Part shown: in pieces, positions 47,446-53,414 of the stretch
How positions within the stretch are numbered: position 1 is the first letter of the stretch
Layout of the letters: each line of letters opens with the position of its first letter
NCBI RefSeq assembly: GCF_009900715.1
Contig: NZ_JAAAJC010000004.1
Span: 62,001-126,000, forward strand
DNA: 64,000 nucleotides
Source: Halococcus salsus
GTDB taxonomy: Archaea; Halobacteriota; Halobacteria; Halobacteriales; Halococcaceae
Reading direction: 5' to 3'
The notes under the pieces: model-generated
Databases searched by the model: none
Told to the model about the DNA's origin: nothing
What the model saw: only the letters and a program-made list of their open reading frames with translations
Made by a program: the position numbers and the translations under genes

Positions 47446-47874
47446 CTACTCCTCGCTCCGTCGGTTGAGTTCGTCGACGAGGGTCTCGGCCAGGTCCTGG
47501 AGGTCCTCGTCGGACATCGCGTCGAGGTCGCCGAGCGCGCTCGACTCGTCTTCGTCCTCGTCCGAGCCGCCCGCCACCGAGTCGAGGGCGCTCGTCACCC
47601 GTTCCGCGACGCTCCCGCCGGCCGACTCGTCCTCGTCCGACTCCGTCTCGCTCGACTCGTCGGTTCCTTCCTCTTCTTCGGCCTCCTCTTCGTCGGCTTC
47701 CTCTTCTTCGTCCTCGTCGGATTCGTCCGCTTCGTCCCCTTCTTCCTCGTCCTCGTCGGTTTCGTCCCCGTTGCTCCCGAGGAACGATCGCTCGATCCGG
47801 TCGCCGATCGAGCTTCCGACCCGCTCGCCGACGATCCCGCCGATGAGCCGGAAGAGGGTCGTGGCTACACCCAT
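47446..47874 (-). CDS. acidic protein downstream of gvpM, unknown
   Basis: A 142-residue protein. Residues 1-32 (MGVATTLFRLIGGIVGERV..IERSFLG) are a Gly-spaced helix that could sit on or in a membrane or vesicle shell. Residues ~35-85 are almost only Asp, Glu and Ser. Residues ~85-142 contain a short helix (VAERVTSALDSVAGG) and a C-terminal LDAMSDEDLQDLAETLVDELNRR helix. A strong ribosome-binding site (GGAGGTGA, 6 bp before the ATG) fixes the start at 47874. It lies 190 bp beyond gvpM in the same direction; a gas-vesicle role is inferred from position only. Confidence 0.55.
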   Translation of the reverse strand: MGVATTLFRLIGGIVGERVGSSIGDRIERSFLGSNGDETDEDEEEGDEADESDEDEEEEADEEEAEEEEGTDESSETESDEDESAGGSVAERVTSALDSVAGGSDEDEDESSALGDLDAMSDEDLQDLAETLVDELNRRSEE

Positions 47875-48064: not shown

Positions 48065-48358
48065 TCACGGCTCCTCTCCCTCCAACTGGCCCGGGTCGTC
48101 GGTCGGTCCCTCCGCGAACCGCGCGTCGGTGAGTTCGTCGCCGGCGAGCGCACGCTGGCGCTGCTGGCGGTCCCACTCCTCGAAGATGCCGTACTCCGTC
48201 ATCGTCGCCATCCCGGCGAGCGCCGCCCGGAGTTTCAGCCCGACGAGGGGGATGTCGGCGACGCTGATGATGGCGTCGGCCTCGATCACCGCCCCGTCGC
48301 GGAGGATGACGTCGAGCAGGTCGACGATGACGTCGTCGTCAGCCCGTTTCGGCTCCAT
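48065..48358 (-). CDS. gvpM: gas vesicle protein GvpM
   Basis: A 97-residue member of the GvpA/J/M fold: VDLLDVILRDGAVIEADAIISVADIPLVGLKLRAALAGMATMTEYGIF corresponds to the helix-strand-strand-helix core. A charged tail follows. GvpM is a minor, aggregation-prone protein needed early in vesicle formation. It starts inside gvpL with a 20-bp overlap and closes the leftward gvp operon. Confidence 0.88.
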   Translation of the reverse strand: MEPKRADDDVIVDLLDVILRDGAVIEADAIISVADIPLVGLKLRAALAGMATMTEYGIFEEWDRQQRQRALAGDELTDARFAEGPTDDPGQLEGEEP

Positions 48359-49160
48359 CCTCACCCCCGATGGCCGGCGCGAACGAGTACGGCGGCCACG
48401 GCCCGGTGAACCTGACCTCGACCCCGGACTCGGCCGCGACCTCGTCGAGCAGGTCGCCGAGGTCGTCCTCGCGGTCGGCCGGCGCGAGCACCGTGAACCG
48501 GGCTTGGGTCTCCATACCGTCGTCGCCGGCGTCCTCGTCGTCGAGCGTGGTTCGCTCGCCGAGTTCGGAGACGTTGCGGACGACCGATTCGAGCCGCTCG
48601 TGGAGCGCCCCCGCCCGCTCGTTACGGCGTTCGCGCTTGAGCTCGCGGAGCCGCTGGTCGTACTGTTTCTCGAGCATGAACGCGGTCCCCGAACCCGCGT
48701 CGGCGATCTCGGTGTCGAGCTCCCCGAGCCGGTCGTCGCTGGCTTCGAGGTCTTCGACCAACGCCTGCTCGTCGCGCCGGAGTTCGATCCGGTACTCCCA
48801 GTGGCCGGCGACCGCGTCGAGGTAGTCACCGACGGTCTCGCGCTCCTCGCGGACCCACTCGCGCACGCTCTCGTCGCTCCCGGTCACGACGGTGTCGAAC
48901 TGGAAGGGAAGCGGGGTGTCGAACGCCTCGCCCGCCTCGTCGACGACGCGCTGGTGCTGGAGCACCCACGTCCGCACCACGTCCATGTCGGCGGTGTCGT
49001 AGAGGGATTCACAGTCGTGAACCACGACTCCGATGTCGTCGACCGCGACCAGCCGCACGGGTTCGTCGTCGACGCCGGTCGCCGAGAACTCGGCGTCGCC
49101 GTCCAGCCGCACGGCACAGTAGAGGTACCGTCCCTCGTCGAACGCGTCGGTCTCAGACAC
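48339..49160 (-). CDS. gvpL: gas vesicle protein GvpL
   Basis: A 273-residue GvpF/L-family protein: GRYLYCAVRLDG at the N-terminus, VLQHQRVVDEAGEAFDTPLPFQFDTVV, a long coiled-coil stretch (~125-205, LRRDEQALVEDLEASDDRLGELDTE), and the closing VRFTGPWPPYSFAP. The last motif is shared with GvpF (VQYTGPWPPYNF). GvpL is an essential accessory protein binding other minor Gvps. Overlaps gvpK by 8 bp and gvpM by 20 bp. Confidence 0.9.
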   Translation of the reverse strand: MSETDAFDEGRYLYCAVRLDGDAEFSATGVDDEPVRLVAVDDIGVVVHDCESLYDTADMDVVRTWVLQHQRVVDEAGEAFDTPLPFQFDTVVTGSDESVREWVREERETVGDYLDAVAGHWEYRIELRRDEQALVEDLEASDDRLGELDTEIADAGSGTAFMLEKQYDQRLRELKRERRNERAGALHERLESVVRNVSELGERTTLDDEDAGDDGMETQARFTVLAPADREDDLGDLLDEVAAESGVEVRFTGPWPPYSFAPAIGGEDGAETG

Positions 49161-49473
49161 CGTCGATCACGCCCCGTTCGTCGCGGGGTTCGTCGGCACG
49201 CTCGACGAGGTCCCGGACCAGCCCGTCGAGCTCGCCACGGAGGTCGTCGACCGGCTCCTCGATCCCCTCGTCCTGCTTGATGTTCTCGATCTCGGTTTCG
49301 AGCGCCGCCAGCTGCGAGCCCAGCCGCTCGATCTCCTCGTCGGTGAGTTCGCCCGACTCCATCCGGCGGATCGCCTCGCGTTCCATCGCGTCCACGAGGA
49401 GTTCGACCACCGTGACCACCAGGGTCATCAGCCCGTCGCGCGCCTGGTCGCCGTCGACGTCAATCGTCGTCAT
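49153..49473 (-). CDS. gvpK: gas vesicle protein GvpK
   Basis: A 106-residue helical protein with the GvpK core GLMTLVVTVVELLVDAMEREAIRRMESGELTDEEIERLGSQLAALE. GvpK is required for assembly; its biochemical job is unclear. The ATG at 49473 lies 14 bp inside gvpJ. The C-terminus overlaps gvpL by 8 bp. Confidence 0.9.
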   Translation of the reverse strand: MTTIDVDGDQARDGLMTLVVTVVELLVDAMEREAIRRMESGELTDEEIERLGSQLAALETEIENIKQDEGIEEPVDDLRGELDGLVRDLVERADEPRDERGVIDGV

Positions 49474-49897
49474 TGGCCTCCTCCACGACCTCCTTGGGCT
49501 CCTCGGTCTCACCGTCCTCGTCCGCTTCGTCGTCCTCGTCGGAGTCCGGCCGCGAACGGATCCCGGGCTCGCCCTGGTCGTCGGAGTCGCCGGCGGCGTC
49601 GACGACCTCCTCGCCGACCGCGTCGATCGTGGTCTGTTCGTCGTCCGTCTCGTCCGGGAGCTCGGACCGCCCGGAGGCCGCCTCGACCCGTTCCATGTCG
49701 GTGCCGTCCGGGAACTCGAGACCGTACTCGGCGGCGGTCTCGAACGAGGCGATCGCGGCCCGGAGCTGGACTCCGAGGAGTTCGGTGTCGCCGATGGAGA
49801 CCACGATGTCGGCGTTGATCACGACCCCCTTGTCGAGCAGCATCTCCACCACGTCGGCGAGGCTGTCGCTCTCTCGCGTTGGACCGCCGCTACTCAT
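49460..49897 (-). CDS. gvpJ: gas vesicle protein GvpJ
   Basis: A 145-residue GvpA-like protein: residues ~10-60 (SLADVVEMLLDKGVVINADIVVSIGDTELLGVQLRAAIASFETAAEYGL) are the shell-protein fold, and the remaining ~85 residues are a long Asp/Glu-rich tail. Typical GvpJ is about 100-115 residues, so the tail is extended. It overlaps gvpI by 8 bp. Confidence 0.9.
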   Translation of the reverse strand: MSSGGPTRESDSLADVVEMLLDKGVVINADIVVSIGDTELLGVQLRAAIASFETAAEYGLEFPDGTDMERVEAASGRSELPDETDDEQTTIDAVGEEVVDAAGDSDDQGEPGIRSRPDSDEDDEADEDGETEEPKEVVEEANDDD

Positions 49898-50936
49898 CGT
49901 CGGCCTCCTCGTTCCGGATGCCCTCGAATCGCGAACCGTAGAGCCGGGGGTGGTTCGGCGCGTTCGAGTGGCGCGTCTCGGCCGGCACCGTCGAGTAACC
50001 CGTCGACGACCAGCTACCGGTCTTCCAGCCCGCGGTCATCGTCGAGACCGCGGTCGGGTTCCGGGAGGAGGGCTGGCCGATGTCGCCCCCGGTCTTCTCC
50101 TCGATCTTCTCGTTCGCGGTCTCGCGCGCCTCCTTGACCTGCTCGCGCGTGTCGAGCACGCTCTCGCGGAACTCCCCGATCGCGTCCCGGAGCTTCGATT
50201 GGATCGTCGCCTGGGCGGCCGCCTGCTGTTCGGCGAGCGAGGGACCGTCGGCCGACGACGTGCTCGTGTCCGGTCCATCGTCGGACGAACTCAGCATCGA
50301 GGAGTCATCGGTTCCCGATCCGTCGTCGGACGAACCAAACATGGACGAGTCGTCGGACGAACCCAGTATCGAGGAGTCGTCGGCCCCCGAATCGTCCGGA
50401 TCGTCGTCGGTGACCTCGTCGGTGGCGTCCTCGAGTTCCTCTTTGTTCCGGATGAACTCCCGGACGTCGACCGACCCCCAGAGCTCGTTGAACTCCACGA
50501 GCGAGGCGAGCTGGGTGAGTTCGACCGCGCGGCCCGGTTCGAGGGTCGCTATCGCCTCCGGCAGCTCGTCGGCGTCGATCGCCGACGGGAGCTCCTCGAT
50601 GTCGATGGCGTCGGGGAGCTGGCTCATGTCGACGGTGTCGAGGAGCTCGCCGGTCTCCTCGATGACGTTCCCGAGGTCCTCGATGTCCTCGCGGGCCTCC
50701 GAGAACGCGATCTCGCCGTTCAACACCCCGAGGAGCGATTCGATGTCGGTCTCGACGCGCTCGATGAGACCGTCCATCTCCGGCAGCTCGGGGAGTGCGT
50801 CCTCGGCCTCGCCGGATTCCTCGGCGGTCTCGGTCTCGTCGGTCTCCTCGTTCGCGTTCCGCTCCGAAGCGCCGAGCGCGGAGTCGAGCTTGTCGGCGGC
50901 CTCGGCCATCCGTTCCTTCGATTCGGAGTCGCTCAT
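49890..50936 (-). CDS. enlarged GvpI-position protein
   Basis: A 348-residue protein occupying the gvpI slot between gvpH and gvpJ, where known GvpI proteins are only about 110-150 residues. Residues ~45-170 form an acidic helical domain. It contains three tandem 9-residue units (LPDAIDIEE, LPSAIDADE, LPEAIATLE; 107-133), then LASLVEFNELWGSVDVREF. Residues 177-232 are Ser/Asp-rich low complexity with GSSDD repeats. Residues ~235-283 are a coiled coil, and 303-340 a Gly/Ser/Tyr-rich end (GYSTVPAE, HPRLYGSRF). Only the C-terminal third is GvpI-like in character; homology is not established. Overlaps gvpH by 4 bp (ATGA). Confidence 0.55.
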   Translation of the reverse strand: MSDSESKERMAEAADKLDSALGASERNANEETDETETAEESGEAEDALPELPEMDGLIERVETDIESLLGVLNGEIAFSEAREDIEDLGNVIEETGELLDTVDMSQLPDAIDIEELPSAIDADELPEAIATLEPGRAVELTQLASLVEFNELWGSVDVREFIRNKEELEDATDEVTDDDPDDSGADDSSILGSSDDSSMFGSSDDGSGTDDSSMLSSSDDGPDTSTSSADGPSLAEQQAAAQATIQSKLRDAIGEFRESVLDTREQVKEARETANEKIEEKTGGDIGQPSSRNPTAVSTMTAGWKTGSWSSTGYSTVPAETRHSNAPNHPRLYGSRFEGIRNEEADDE

Positions 50937-51406
50937 GCCGCCCCCTCGACGACGAGTCGAACGTCGAGCACGCCGTTGTTGAACGACGCGTCCGCGACCG
51001 CGAGGTCCCCACGCGGGAGCGAGACGCGTTCGAGTATCACCGAATCCGTCCCGACCACGAGGGTCTCGCCCGACGAGTCGACGCCCGCCGCGAGGTCGTG
51101 CGGGTCGACGTCCGGGAGGTCGAGCGTGACGATACAGCCCTCGTCGGTCGGGTTCACGGAGGCCGCGTAGTCGGTCTCGACCTCCGGGTCACGCGACTGC
51201 GACTCGTCCCGGCCAGGTCCGATCCCGACGTCGAGCCCGTAGTCGAACCGGGTGGAGCCGCTGCGGCCGCTCCCGGTCGCGCTCCGGCGTCGCTGGTTCC
51301 GTTCGTCCATGTCGGCGATGGTCTCGAACAGCCCCGACAACACCGTCCGGACGAACCCCGATCCACCGGCGTCGCTTCGTTCCGCGTCATGGTCATCGGA
51401 TGTCAT
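50933..51406 (-). CDS. gvpH: gas vesicle protein GvpH (Hsp20-like)
   Basis: A 157-residue protein. The N-terminus has VRTVLSGLFETIADMDERNQRR, as in GvpH. Residues ~75-157 have an Hsp20-type beta sandwich pattern (DYAASVNPTDEGCIVTLDLPDVDPHDLAAGVDSSGETLVVG and GDLAVADASFNNGVLDVRLVVEG). GvpH acts as a chaperone-like stabiliser and is not strictly required. Its start shares one base with the gvpG stop (TAATG). Confidence 0.85.
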   Translation of the reverse strand: MTSDDHDAERSDAGGSGFVRTVLSGLFETIADMDERNQRRRSATGSGRSGSTRFDYGLDVGIGPGRDESQSRDPEVETDYAASVNPTDEGCIVTLDLPDVDPHDLAAGVDSSGETLVVGTDSVILERVSLPRGDLAVADASFNNGVLDVRLVVEGAA

Positions 51407-51657
51407 TATCGTTTCACCTCAACCTTGCTCGACAGCGTCTCGCGCGCCTCGCGCGCGACGTCGAGCTGTGTTCGCAGCTCGTCCTGTCTGCGTTCGTACT
51501 CCTCGACATCGCGGTCGCCGATCTCGAACAGCAATCGGTTCTCTTTGATCTCGTCCTGTATCCCCTGGACGTCGTAGAGCTCCTCGATCGCCATCGAGTG
51601 GATGACGTTCGCGACCGAGACGATCGGGCGCAGGAGGAGGTCGTCGAGGATGAACAC
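51406..51657 (-). CDS. gvpG: gas vesicle protein GvpG
   Basis: An 83-residue helical protein (FILDDLLLRPIVSVANVIHSMAIEELYDVQGIQDEIKENRLLFEIGD), the expected length and pattern of GvpG. It starts with GTG at 51657, sharing one base with the gvpF stop (TAGTG), which decides this start. GvpG is essential and interacts with other accessory Gvps. Confidence 0.9.
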   Translation of the reverse strand: MFILDDLLLRPIVSVANVIHSMAIEELYDVQGIQDEIKENRLLFEIGDRDVEEYERRQDELRTQLDVAREARETLSSKVEVKR

Positions 51658-52295
51658 TATTGCTGATTCCCCTGTGCACCGATCTCGATGTCCACGAAGT
51701 TGTACGGCGGCCACGGCCCGGTGTACTGGACCGTGAGGACATCGCCGTAGTCGTCGGTGACCGCGTCTACGGCCTCGTCGAACGCGATCCGTTCGTCACG
51801 GTCGACGAGATACGACCGGTTCATCACGAGCCGGTCGCTGAACCGGTCGTTCTCGGCTTCGTTGACGCTGGCCGCCGCGAACCGTTCGACGGCGTCCTCG
51901 CGAACCGCCTCGGCGTCGATCGAGGCGTCCTCGTCGGCGACGAGCTTGACGCCGAACTCGAAGTAGCCGTCGATCTCGCGGAGCGCCTTCGTGAACGCCC
52001 GCCGGCCGCCCCGAAGCACGTTCTTGAGCGCCCGGCCGTTCTTGAAGACCGACCCGAACTGCATCGGCACCACCGTTCGGCCGCCGTCGTCGAGCAGGAC
52101 GGTCTGGAGGACGTCGTCGTGCGCGCGGGCGTTCTCGTCCGAGAGTTCGGGGTCCATCGTGTCGATGTCGGTCACGATGGCCGCGAGCGGGCCGTGGCTC
52201 ACCGTGTAGGCGTTCGTCGCACCCGCAACGCCGTCGACCTCGAACTCCAGCTCCTCGTTCTCGACGACGCCGTAGGCGTAGAGGTTCTCGCTCAT
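51657..52295 (-). CDS. gvpF: gas vesicle protein GvpF
   Basis: A 212-residue GvpF/L-family protein: LYAYGVVENEELEFEVDGV at the N-terminus, VVPMQFGSVFKNGRALKNVLRGG in the middle, YFEFGVKLVADEDASID, and the closing YTGPWPPYNFVDIEI. GvpF binds GvpA and seeds the shell. It is the first gene of the leftward gvp operon; ATG 52295 was preferred over an in-frame start at 52451 that runs through the promoter. Confidence 0.92.
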   Translation of the reverse strand: MSENLYAYGVVENEELEFEVDGVAGATNAYTVSHGPLAAIVTDIDTMDPELSDENARAHDDVLQTVLLDDGGRTVVPMQFGSVFKNGRALKNVLRGGRRAFTKALREIDGYFEFGVKLVADEDASIDAEAVREDAVERFAAASVNEAENDRFSDRLVMNRSYLVDRDERIAFDEAVDAVTDDYGDVLTVQYTGPWPPYNFVDIEIGAQGNQQ

Positions 52296-52505: not shown

Positions 52506-52817
52506 ATGAGTGCACGACCCTCAAGCGACAGTCTGGCCGAAGTGCTCGACCGAATCCTCGATAAGGGGATCGTCATCGACATCTGGGCGCGTGTCTCGGT
52601 GGTCGGTATCGAGATCCTCACGGTCGAGGCGCGCGTGGTCGTCGCCTCGGTCGACACCTTCCTCCACTACGGGAAGGAGATATCCAAGTTGGAGATGGCG
52701 AGCCAGTCCGGGGACCTCCAGGACCTGAAGGACCTCGATCTGGGTACCTCGCCGATGGTCCAGCCCGAACCCGACGAGCCGGAAGTCCGGATCGAAGAGC
52801 AAGAACAAGAGCAGTAA
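52506..52817 (+). CDS. gvpA: gas vesicle major shell protein GvpA
   Basis: A 103-residue shell protein. Residues ~8-60 ([51 protein letters not shown]) are nearly the invariant GvpA core that packs into the ribs of the vesicle wall. Haloarchaeal GvpA is commonly about 75-80 residues; here an acidic/Gln tail ([16 protein letters not shown]) lengthens it. The ATG at 52506 is preceded by GGGAG and a TATA box 28 bp upstream. Confidence 0.95.
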
Positions 52818-52855
52818 CGCCCACCATCGGTCGGGCGTCGCGCCCGAACCCGTGC

Positions 52856-52872
52856 GGCGTTTTATATATCAC
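52856..52872 (+). promoter_or_regulatory. TATA box of gvpO
   Basis: CGTTTTATATATCACC has a strong TATA element centred near 52865, about 30 bp before the gvpO ATG at 52896, so gvpO can be transcribed on its own besides any read-through from gvpA. Confidence 0.6.
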
Positions 52873-52895
52873 CCCCGAGATGATACCATCCACCA

Positions 52896-53414
52896 ATGGC
52901 TGACCTCGACCCAAGCGAGTATACCATCGACGAACTGCGCGACGAACTCGAATCGATCGACGACCCGGACACCCTCGAGGAGGTCCGCGAGTCCGAATCC
53001 GAGAACGAGAACCGGACCGGAGCCCTCGACGCGATCGACGAACGTCTCGACGCCGTCGAAGACGACGAGAGCGAGGCGGACGGCGGATCGGACGGGTCCG
53101 ACCAGACCACCGCCGACGGTGGCGAGAGCGTCAGCCCCGGCATCCTCGAGGTTCGAAACCACGTCCGCGACGCCGCCGCGGACCTGATCGGCCGTCCGCT
53201 CGATAGCGTCATCGAGATCGAACAGAACGACGACGGCGACTGGCACGCCCTCGTCGAGATCGTCGAGCGCAACTCGGTGCCCGACACCCAGGACATCATC
53301 GGGCGGTACGCGCTCCAGGTCGACGACGGCGGAACGATAACGGGCTACCGACGGCTGGACCGATACCGTCGCGGCGACACGCGACGCGACGAGGAACCCT
53401 CGCAAGCGCTGTAG
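52896..53414 (+). CDS. gvpO: gas vesicle protein GvpO
   Basis: A 172-residue protein. Residues 1-85 are acidic and low complexity (DDELESIDDPDTLEE, EDDESEADGGSDG); residues ~90-160 are the GvpO domain (ARDAAADLIGRPLDSVIEIEQNDDGDWHALVEIVERNSVPDTQDIIGRYALQVDDGGTITGYRRLDRYRRG, positions approximate). GvpO is required for vesicle formation in haloarchaea. The N-terminal acidic part is longer than usual. Only 78 bp separate it from gvpA, with no gvpC or gvpN between them. Confidence 0.9.
   Translation: MADLDPSEYTIDELRDELESIDDPDTLEEVRESESENENRTGALDAIDERLDAVEDDESEADGGSDGSDQTTADGGESVSPGILEVRNHVRDAAADLIGRPLDSVIEIEQNDDGDWHALVEIVERNSVPDTQDIIGRYALQVDDGGTITGYRRLDRYRRGDTRRDEEPSQAL

Follow-up and report, generated by a model that had tools for sequence, protein, structure and literature searches.

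Introduction

In Halobacterium, GvpI forms a heterodimer with GvpH and also binds GvpL and GvpF. It causes GvpJ, GvpK and GvpM to oligomerise and limits vesicle length, very long vesicles being formed without it (PMC7688916). The two GvpI proteins of Halobacterium salinarum, of 144 (p-vac) and 113 (c-vac) amino acids, are short and basic (pI 10-11.9), and a strong positive charge has been proposed as the way in which the studied forms act. They occur together with gvpC, as is the case in the described clusters of documented vesicle-forming species. Haloarchaeal GvpC (PF05465) is a repeat protein of gas-vesicle operons, with repeats of 32-40 residues, which affects vesicle shape. A list published in 2015 includes gvp clusters that lack gvpC and gvpDE, all of them in species without visible vesicles in culture (PMC4390858).

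An extension of GvpI was remarked on in passing in 2012 for two species (PMC3403918), the proteins being Nmag_0338 of Natrialba magadii and Htur_2370 of Haloterrigena turkmenica, both of which are homologues of the long GvpI described below. According to the same paper Nab. magadii lacks gvpC, gvpD and gvpE, in conflict with a 2022 review that gives it as gvpACNO (PMC9501494); none of the Natrialbaceae-type long clusters read in this study carries gvpC. A survey, a domain analysis and the link with the absence of gvpC are added here.

The gvp cluster and its long gvpI

The window is a stretch of 64,000 nucleotides from Halococcus salsus (contig NZ_JAAAJC010000004.1, positions 62,001 to 126,000). 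It holds a small complete gvp cluster, the closest named relative of which is the operon of Halococcus morrhuae, with eight genes on the minus strand and gvpA and gvpO divergent on the plus strand:

52506-53414, plus strand: gvpA (52506-52817) and gvpO (52896-53414), from Pfam/NCBIfam
51406-52295, minus strand: gvpF (52295-51657) and gvpG (about 51657-51406), from Pfam/NCBIfam
50933-51406, minus strand: gvpH, overlapping gvpI by 4 bp (Pfam GvpH, 3.6e-11)
49890-50936, minus strand: gvpI, long form, an intact ATG ORF of 348 amino acids, acidic (pI 4.1)
49460-49897, minus strand: gvpJ, overlapping gvpI by 8 bp (NF046090, 1.7e-43)
48065-49473, minus strand: gvpK (to 49153), gvpL (49160-48339) and gvpM (about 48358-48065), from Pfam/NCBIfam

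An earlier note on this DNA had described a 348-residue reading frame at 49890-50936, joined to gvpH by an ATGA overlap and to gvpJ by 8 bp, and the frame and both overlaps were confirmed. The gene lies between gvpH/gvpG and gvpJ, a slot that is kept in nearly all the clusters read, and almost all related gvp clusters encode a homologue of the long protein immediately upstream of gvpJ. The spacing of about 80 bp between gvpA and gvpO leaves no room for gvpC or gvpN. No GvpC match was found in the whole Halococcus salsus genome, nor any GvpA-type gene beyond the cluster, nor any GvpN above the cut-off (TIGR02640, AAA ATPase), apart from a sub-cut-off match elsewhere.

Downstream of gvpM, a small acidic ORF (47446-47874, minus strand) reads MGVATTLFRLIGGIVGERVGSSIGDRIE... 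and has MSDEDLQDLAETLVDELNRR at its C-terminus. In its tail it resembles a gene located between gvpH and gvpI at seven loci of Halocatena and other Halococcus, and it is possibly a further gvp-associated gene.

A two-module protein

The protein can be divided into the following parts, all on the minus strand:

50403-50783: N-terminal domain, residues 52-178, without counterpart in short GvpI and conserved in 48 long GvpI
50550-50630: the three clearest 9-residue units, LPDAIDIEE, LPSAIDADE and LPEAIATLE, about residues 103-129, conserved family-wide
50445-50525: three weaker 9-residue units, VELTQLASL, VEFNELWGS and VDVREFIRN, residues 138-164
50241-50408: low-complexity Ser/Asp linker containing GSSDD repeats, residues 177-232, of variable length and predicted to be disordered
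50091-50237: GvpI helix, residues 234-282, corresponding by homology to the N-terminal segment of short GvpI, which is basic whereas the helix is not
49923-50069: GvpI tail, SRNPTAxSTM ... STVP ... RLYGxRF, residues 290-338, with little or no variation in alignments A2 and A4

Judged by sequence comparison, short haloarchaeal GvpI is homologous over its whole length to the C-terminal module, and the long protein is a GvpI. Residues 229-348 match Halobacterium GvpI in blastp (8e-7), and in hhalign (99.5%, E 6e-22) the entire short protein is covered by the last 110 residues or so. Besides the operon slot, the two forms share a long helix (residues 234-282 are predicted as a single one) and the near-invariant tail motifs SRNPTAxSTM, STVP and RxYGxRF, which in Halobacterium salinarum appear as NPxAxSTMP, STVP and RLYGxR. 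The proposal in the earlier note of a GvpI fused with a new domain is borne out, the C-terminal part being matched to GvpI by both methods. In contrast, the short protein has neither N-domain nor linker, and its charge differs: the first 53 amino acids of short GvpI carry a net charge of +8 to +18, against a median of -2.5 in the matching helix of long GvpI. The usual description of GvpI as small and basic (about 16 kDa, pI about 10.8) does not fit a protein of 348 amino acids and pI 4.1; small size and basicity are traits of the studied representatives and no criterion of homology, long forms being the majority. Among the proteins scanned, no Pfam or NCBIfam model covers either form.

The N-domain is a helical, acidic region of about 125 residues, conserved in every one of the 48 long forms. 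Its AlphaFold2 model consists of two long helices and, after them, short helices in steps of 9 residues, with a pLDDT of 85.1 and pTM of 0.61 for the domain alone (68.5 pLDDT for the whole protein), so that the separate prediction called for earlier returned a folded unit. The tandem LPxAIxxxE units already noticed begin at residues 107, 116 and 125 and are real, none of 5000 shuffled domain sequences having reached their 3x9 identity score of 16; as the periodicity runs on into weaker units beginning at residues 138, 147 and 156, there are about six units altogether.

The N-domain has no detectable relative or known fold. Foldseek searches against the PDB, run with the full model and with the N-domain, returned nothing below E 0.98, no Pfam family matched the domain and no phage homologue was found. 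A PDB sequence match (9e5c, 8.7e-15) was rejected as compositional, since it is due to ETVEATEVAEA repeats and no individual stretch of it is significant, and an NCBIfam match (CGLAU_01105) lies far under its cut-off.

Acidic low-complexity extensions are common in halophiles, and the N-terminal region could be read as one more of these, devoid of specific function. Residues 1-50 and the linker (177-232), both acidic and poorly conserved, would suit such a reading. However, residues 54-175 are conserved in 48 of 48 long forms and predicted to fold, with D103 and P126 present in at least 90% of the aligned sequences, and we consider this explanation very improbable.

The GSSDD linker noted earlier was also found as described. 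It corresponds at the DNA level to a 27/45-bp tandem repeat present in a different number of copies in the sister species, where additional DDGSGTDDSSILGSSDD-type copies bring the protein to 369 amino acids, compared with 348 here. The linker is a rapidly varying connection, predicted to be disordered, between the N- and C-modules.

Occurrence of long GvpI

A scan of genome contigs with the single protein found no relatives, whereas alignment A4 recovered them. A homologue was present in each of the 18 genomes searched within the family. In a class sample of 391 genomes, 161 were gvp-bearing as judged by a GvpL over the cut-off, and about 146 of these (~91%) have long GvpI, those outside the individually read set being assigned from the extent of the match. 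A long GvpI is therefore not an oddity of one genome, and the unusual size stressed in the earlier note is not a peculiarity of this protein; a length of 110-150 residues, taken there as the norm, holds for gvpC-type clusters only. Fifteen of the 161 carry gvpC or a GvpC-like gene, with short GvpI found in 14 of them; in the fifteenth (G218) gvpI falls off the contig.

Fifty-nine gvpI genes were read in detail. The 11 short ones encode proteins of 113-148 amino acids (pI 9.5-11.9), always with gvpC and gvpN in the cluster (11/11). The 48 long ones encode proteins of 245-398 amino acids (pI 4.1-4.4), never with gvpC or gvpD/E (0/48), and their clusters have gvpN in 18 cases and a detectable gvpH in 40. 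GvpH is the main GvpI partner in Halobacterium, yet eight of the long-GvpI clusters are without detectable gvpH.

Solitary paralogues

Outside the gvp clusters there are solitary genes that share the N-domain and tail, with no conserved neighbour among the loci read. One is present in the Halococcus salsus genome itself (L052, 7493-8257), encoding 254 amino acids with the tail cut after STVPSR. Its neighbours are not gvp genes: a membrane transporter-like gene is upstream and a small ORF downstream. For the strongest-scoring subfamily, modelled by alignment A1, every one of the 40 strong matches obtained in the class sample came from a gvp-bearing genome, and among 125 genomes of one family its solitary members occurred in 45 of 111 gvp-bearing and 0 of 14 gvp-less genomes (Fisher p 0.002, relatedness ignored). 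Two gvp-less genomes hold short fragments of a solitary paralogue, interrupted by a stop codon. The natural reading is that these paralogues have a role linked to gas vesicles.

Mutual exclusion with gvpC

Seventy operons were read directly, comprising the 59 above together with 8 further long and 3 further short ones. None of the 56 operons with long acidic GvpI had gvpC, and all 14 with short basic GvpI had it. The apparent exception was a genome (G249) with a short GvpI of 117 amino acids in which the curated GvpC model matched nothing; its gap between gvpA and gvpN (L163, 10684-11934) holds a 416-amino-acid ORF, missed by Pfam Halo_GVPC, that matches a GvpC profile at 4e-15 (single-sequence search, strongly biased composition). 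The GvpL of this cluster is very divergent. The partition of GvpI by size and charge in step with gvpC, like the solitary paralogues, appears to be new, no report having been found in the open-licence papers searched.

In a tree of GvpF, GvpL and GvpK from 60 clusters, a single branch (SH-aLRT 99) set all the short/gvpC clusters apart, and the same separation was obtained with GvpF, GvpJ, GvpK and GvpL from 74 clusters (SH-aLRT 96). Since one branch divides the two operon types, one ancient split is indicated and no repeated coupling, and the Fisher value for the partition (5e-15) overstates the case because a single evolutionary switch separates them.

The earlier note had offered the long protein as a substitute for a missing GvpC or GvpN. 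The GvpN part fails, given that 18 of the 48 long clusters retain gvpN; no GvpN-type ATPase match was found within GvpI by Pfam or NCBIfam. The GvpC part fared unevenly, the long form being widespread yet never accompanied by gvpC. That the N-domain does the work of GvpC, in reinforcing the shell or controlling shape, agrees with this strict exclusion, with the resolution of G249, and with the fact that in Halobacterium deletion of gvpI or of gvpC each changes vesicle shape. It nevertheless seems unlikely to us. The exclusion may be hitchhiking on one event, the same architecture is found in solitary genes, and Halobacterium gvpFGHIJKLM are expressed at a low level, unlike a shell protein. The N-domain units, moreover, have 9 residues as against 32-40 in GvpC, and no similarity between the two was detected (no profile match, hhalign probability at most 3.3%, no match to Pfam Halo_GVPC). 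A bolder variant, in which two ancient operon lineages exist and a single long GvpI replaces both GvpC and short basic GvpI, its N-domain controlling shape or strength and the solitary paralogues tuning this in trans, is similarly improbable. If the two-lineage reading were true, the long-GvpI lineage would be about ten times commoner than the other and experimentally untouched.

Alternatively, the long form may be the original one, the Halobacterium lineage having dropped the N-domain at around the time that gvpC and gvpDE were acquired, in which case the domain might be dispensable or regulatory. The occurrence of long GvpI in ~91% of gvp-bearing genomes, across several families (lineages f7, f8 and f9 included), and of the N-domain in solitary paralogues fits this order of events. 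However, the trees are unrooted and gvpI is absent from methanogen clusters (PMC9501494), so that which form came first cannot be read from them, and a dispensable domain sits poorly with conservation in 48 of 48 long forms. We regard this history as possible but doubtful.

Proposed role

The reading preferred here, at a probability of about 0.6, is that the long two-module GvpI is an assembly factor whose C-module docks in the accessory complex while the N-domain adds a second binding surface. Like short GvpI in Halobacterium, the C-module would dock on GvpH and on the platform formed by GvpF and GvpL, and would set vesicle length and shape; the N-domain, on its flexible tether, would bring another partner to the assembly complex. 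The same docking is likely in view of the tail common to Halobacterium GvpI. It could not work through a strong positive charge, the matching helix of long GvpI not being basic, and the charge-based proposal accordingly cannot hold for most GvpI. Nor can GvpH be the sole docking site, given the eight long clusters without detectable gvpH. In two related genomes, those of Halocatena marina and Halobacteriales YIM A00010, gvpH and the long gvpI adjoin gvpA-gvpO, apart from gvpF-G and gvpJ-M, and are kept together as expected for partners.

What is known from experiment about archaeal gas vesicles has come almost entirely from gvpC-type operons with short basic GvpI, the minority type. Operons with the long form may be silent, or may make something else, and the survey of long GvpI offers a lead as to why vesicles are not seen in cultures of many gvp-bearing haloarchaea.

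Variation in gvpO was also observed among the clusters read. Five loci have an extra gvpO in opposite orientation adjoining gvpA, some of them with a second gvpA, and the loci of Halocatena marina and its relative have two gvpO-like genes.
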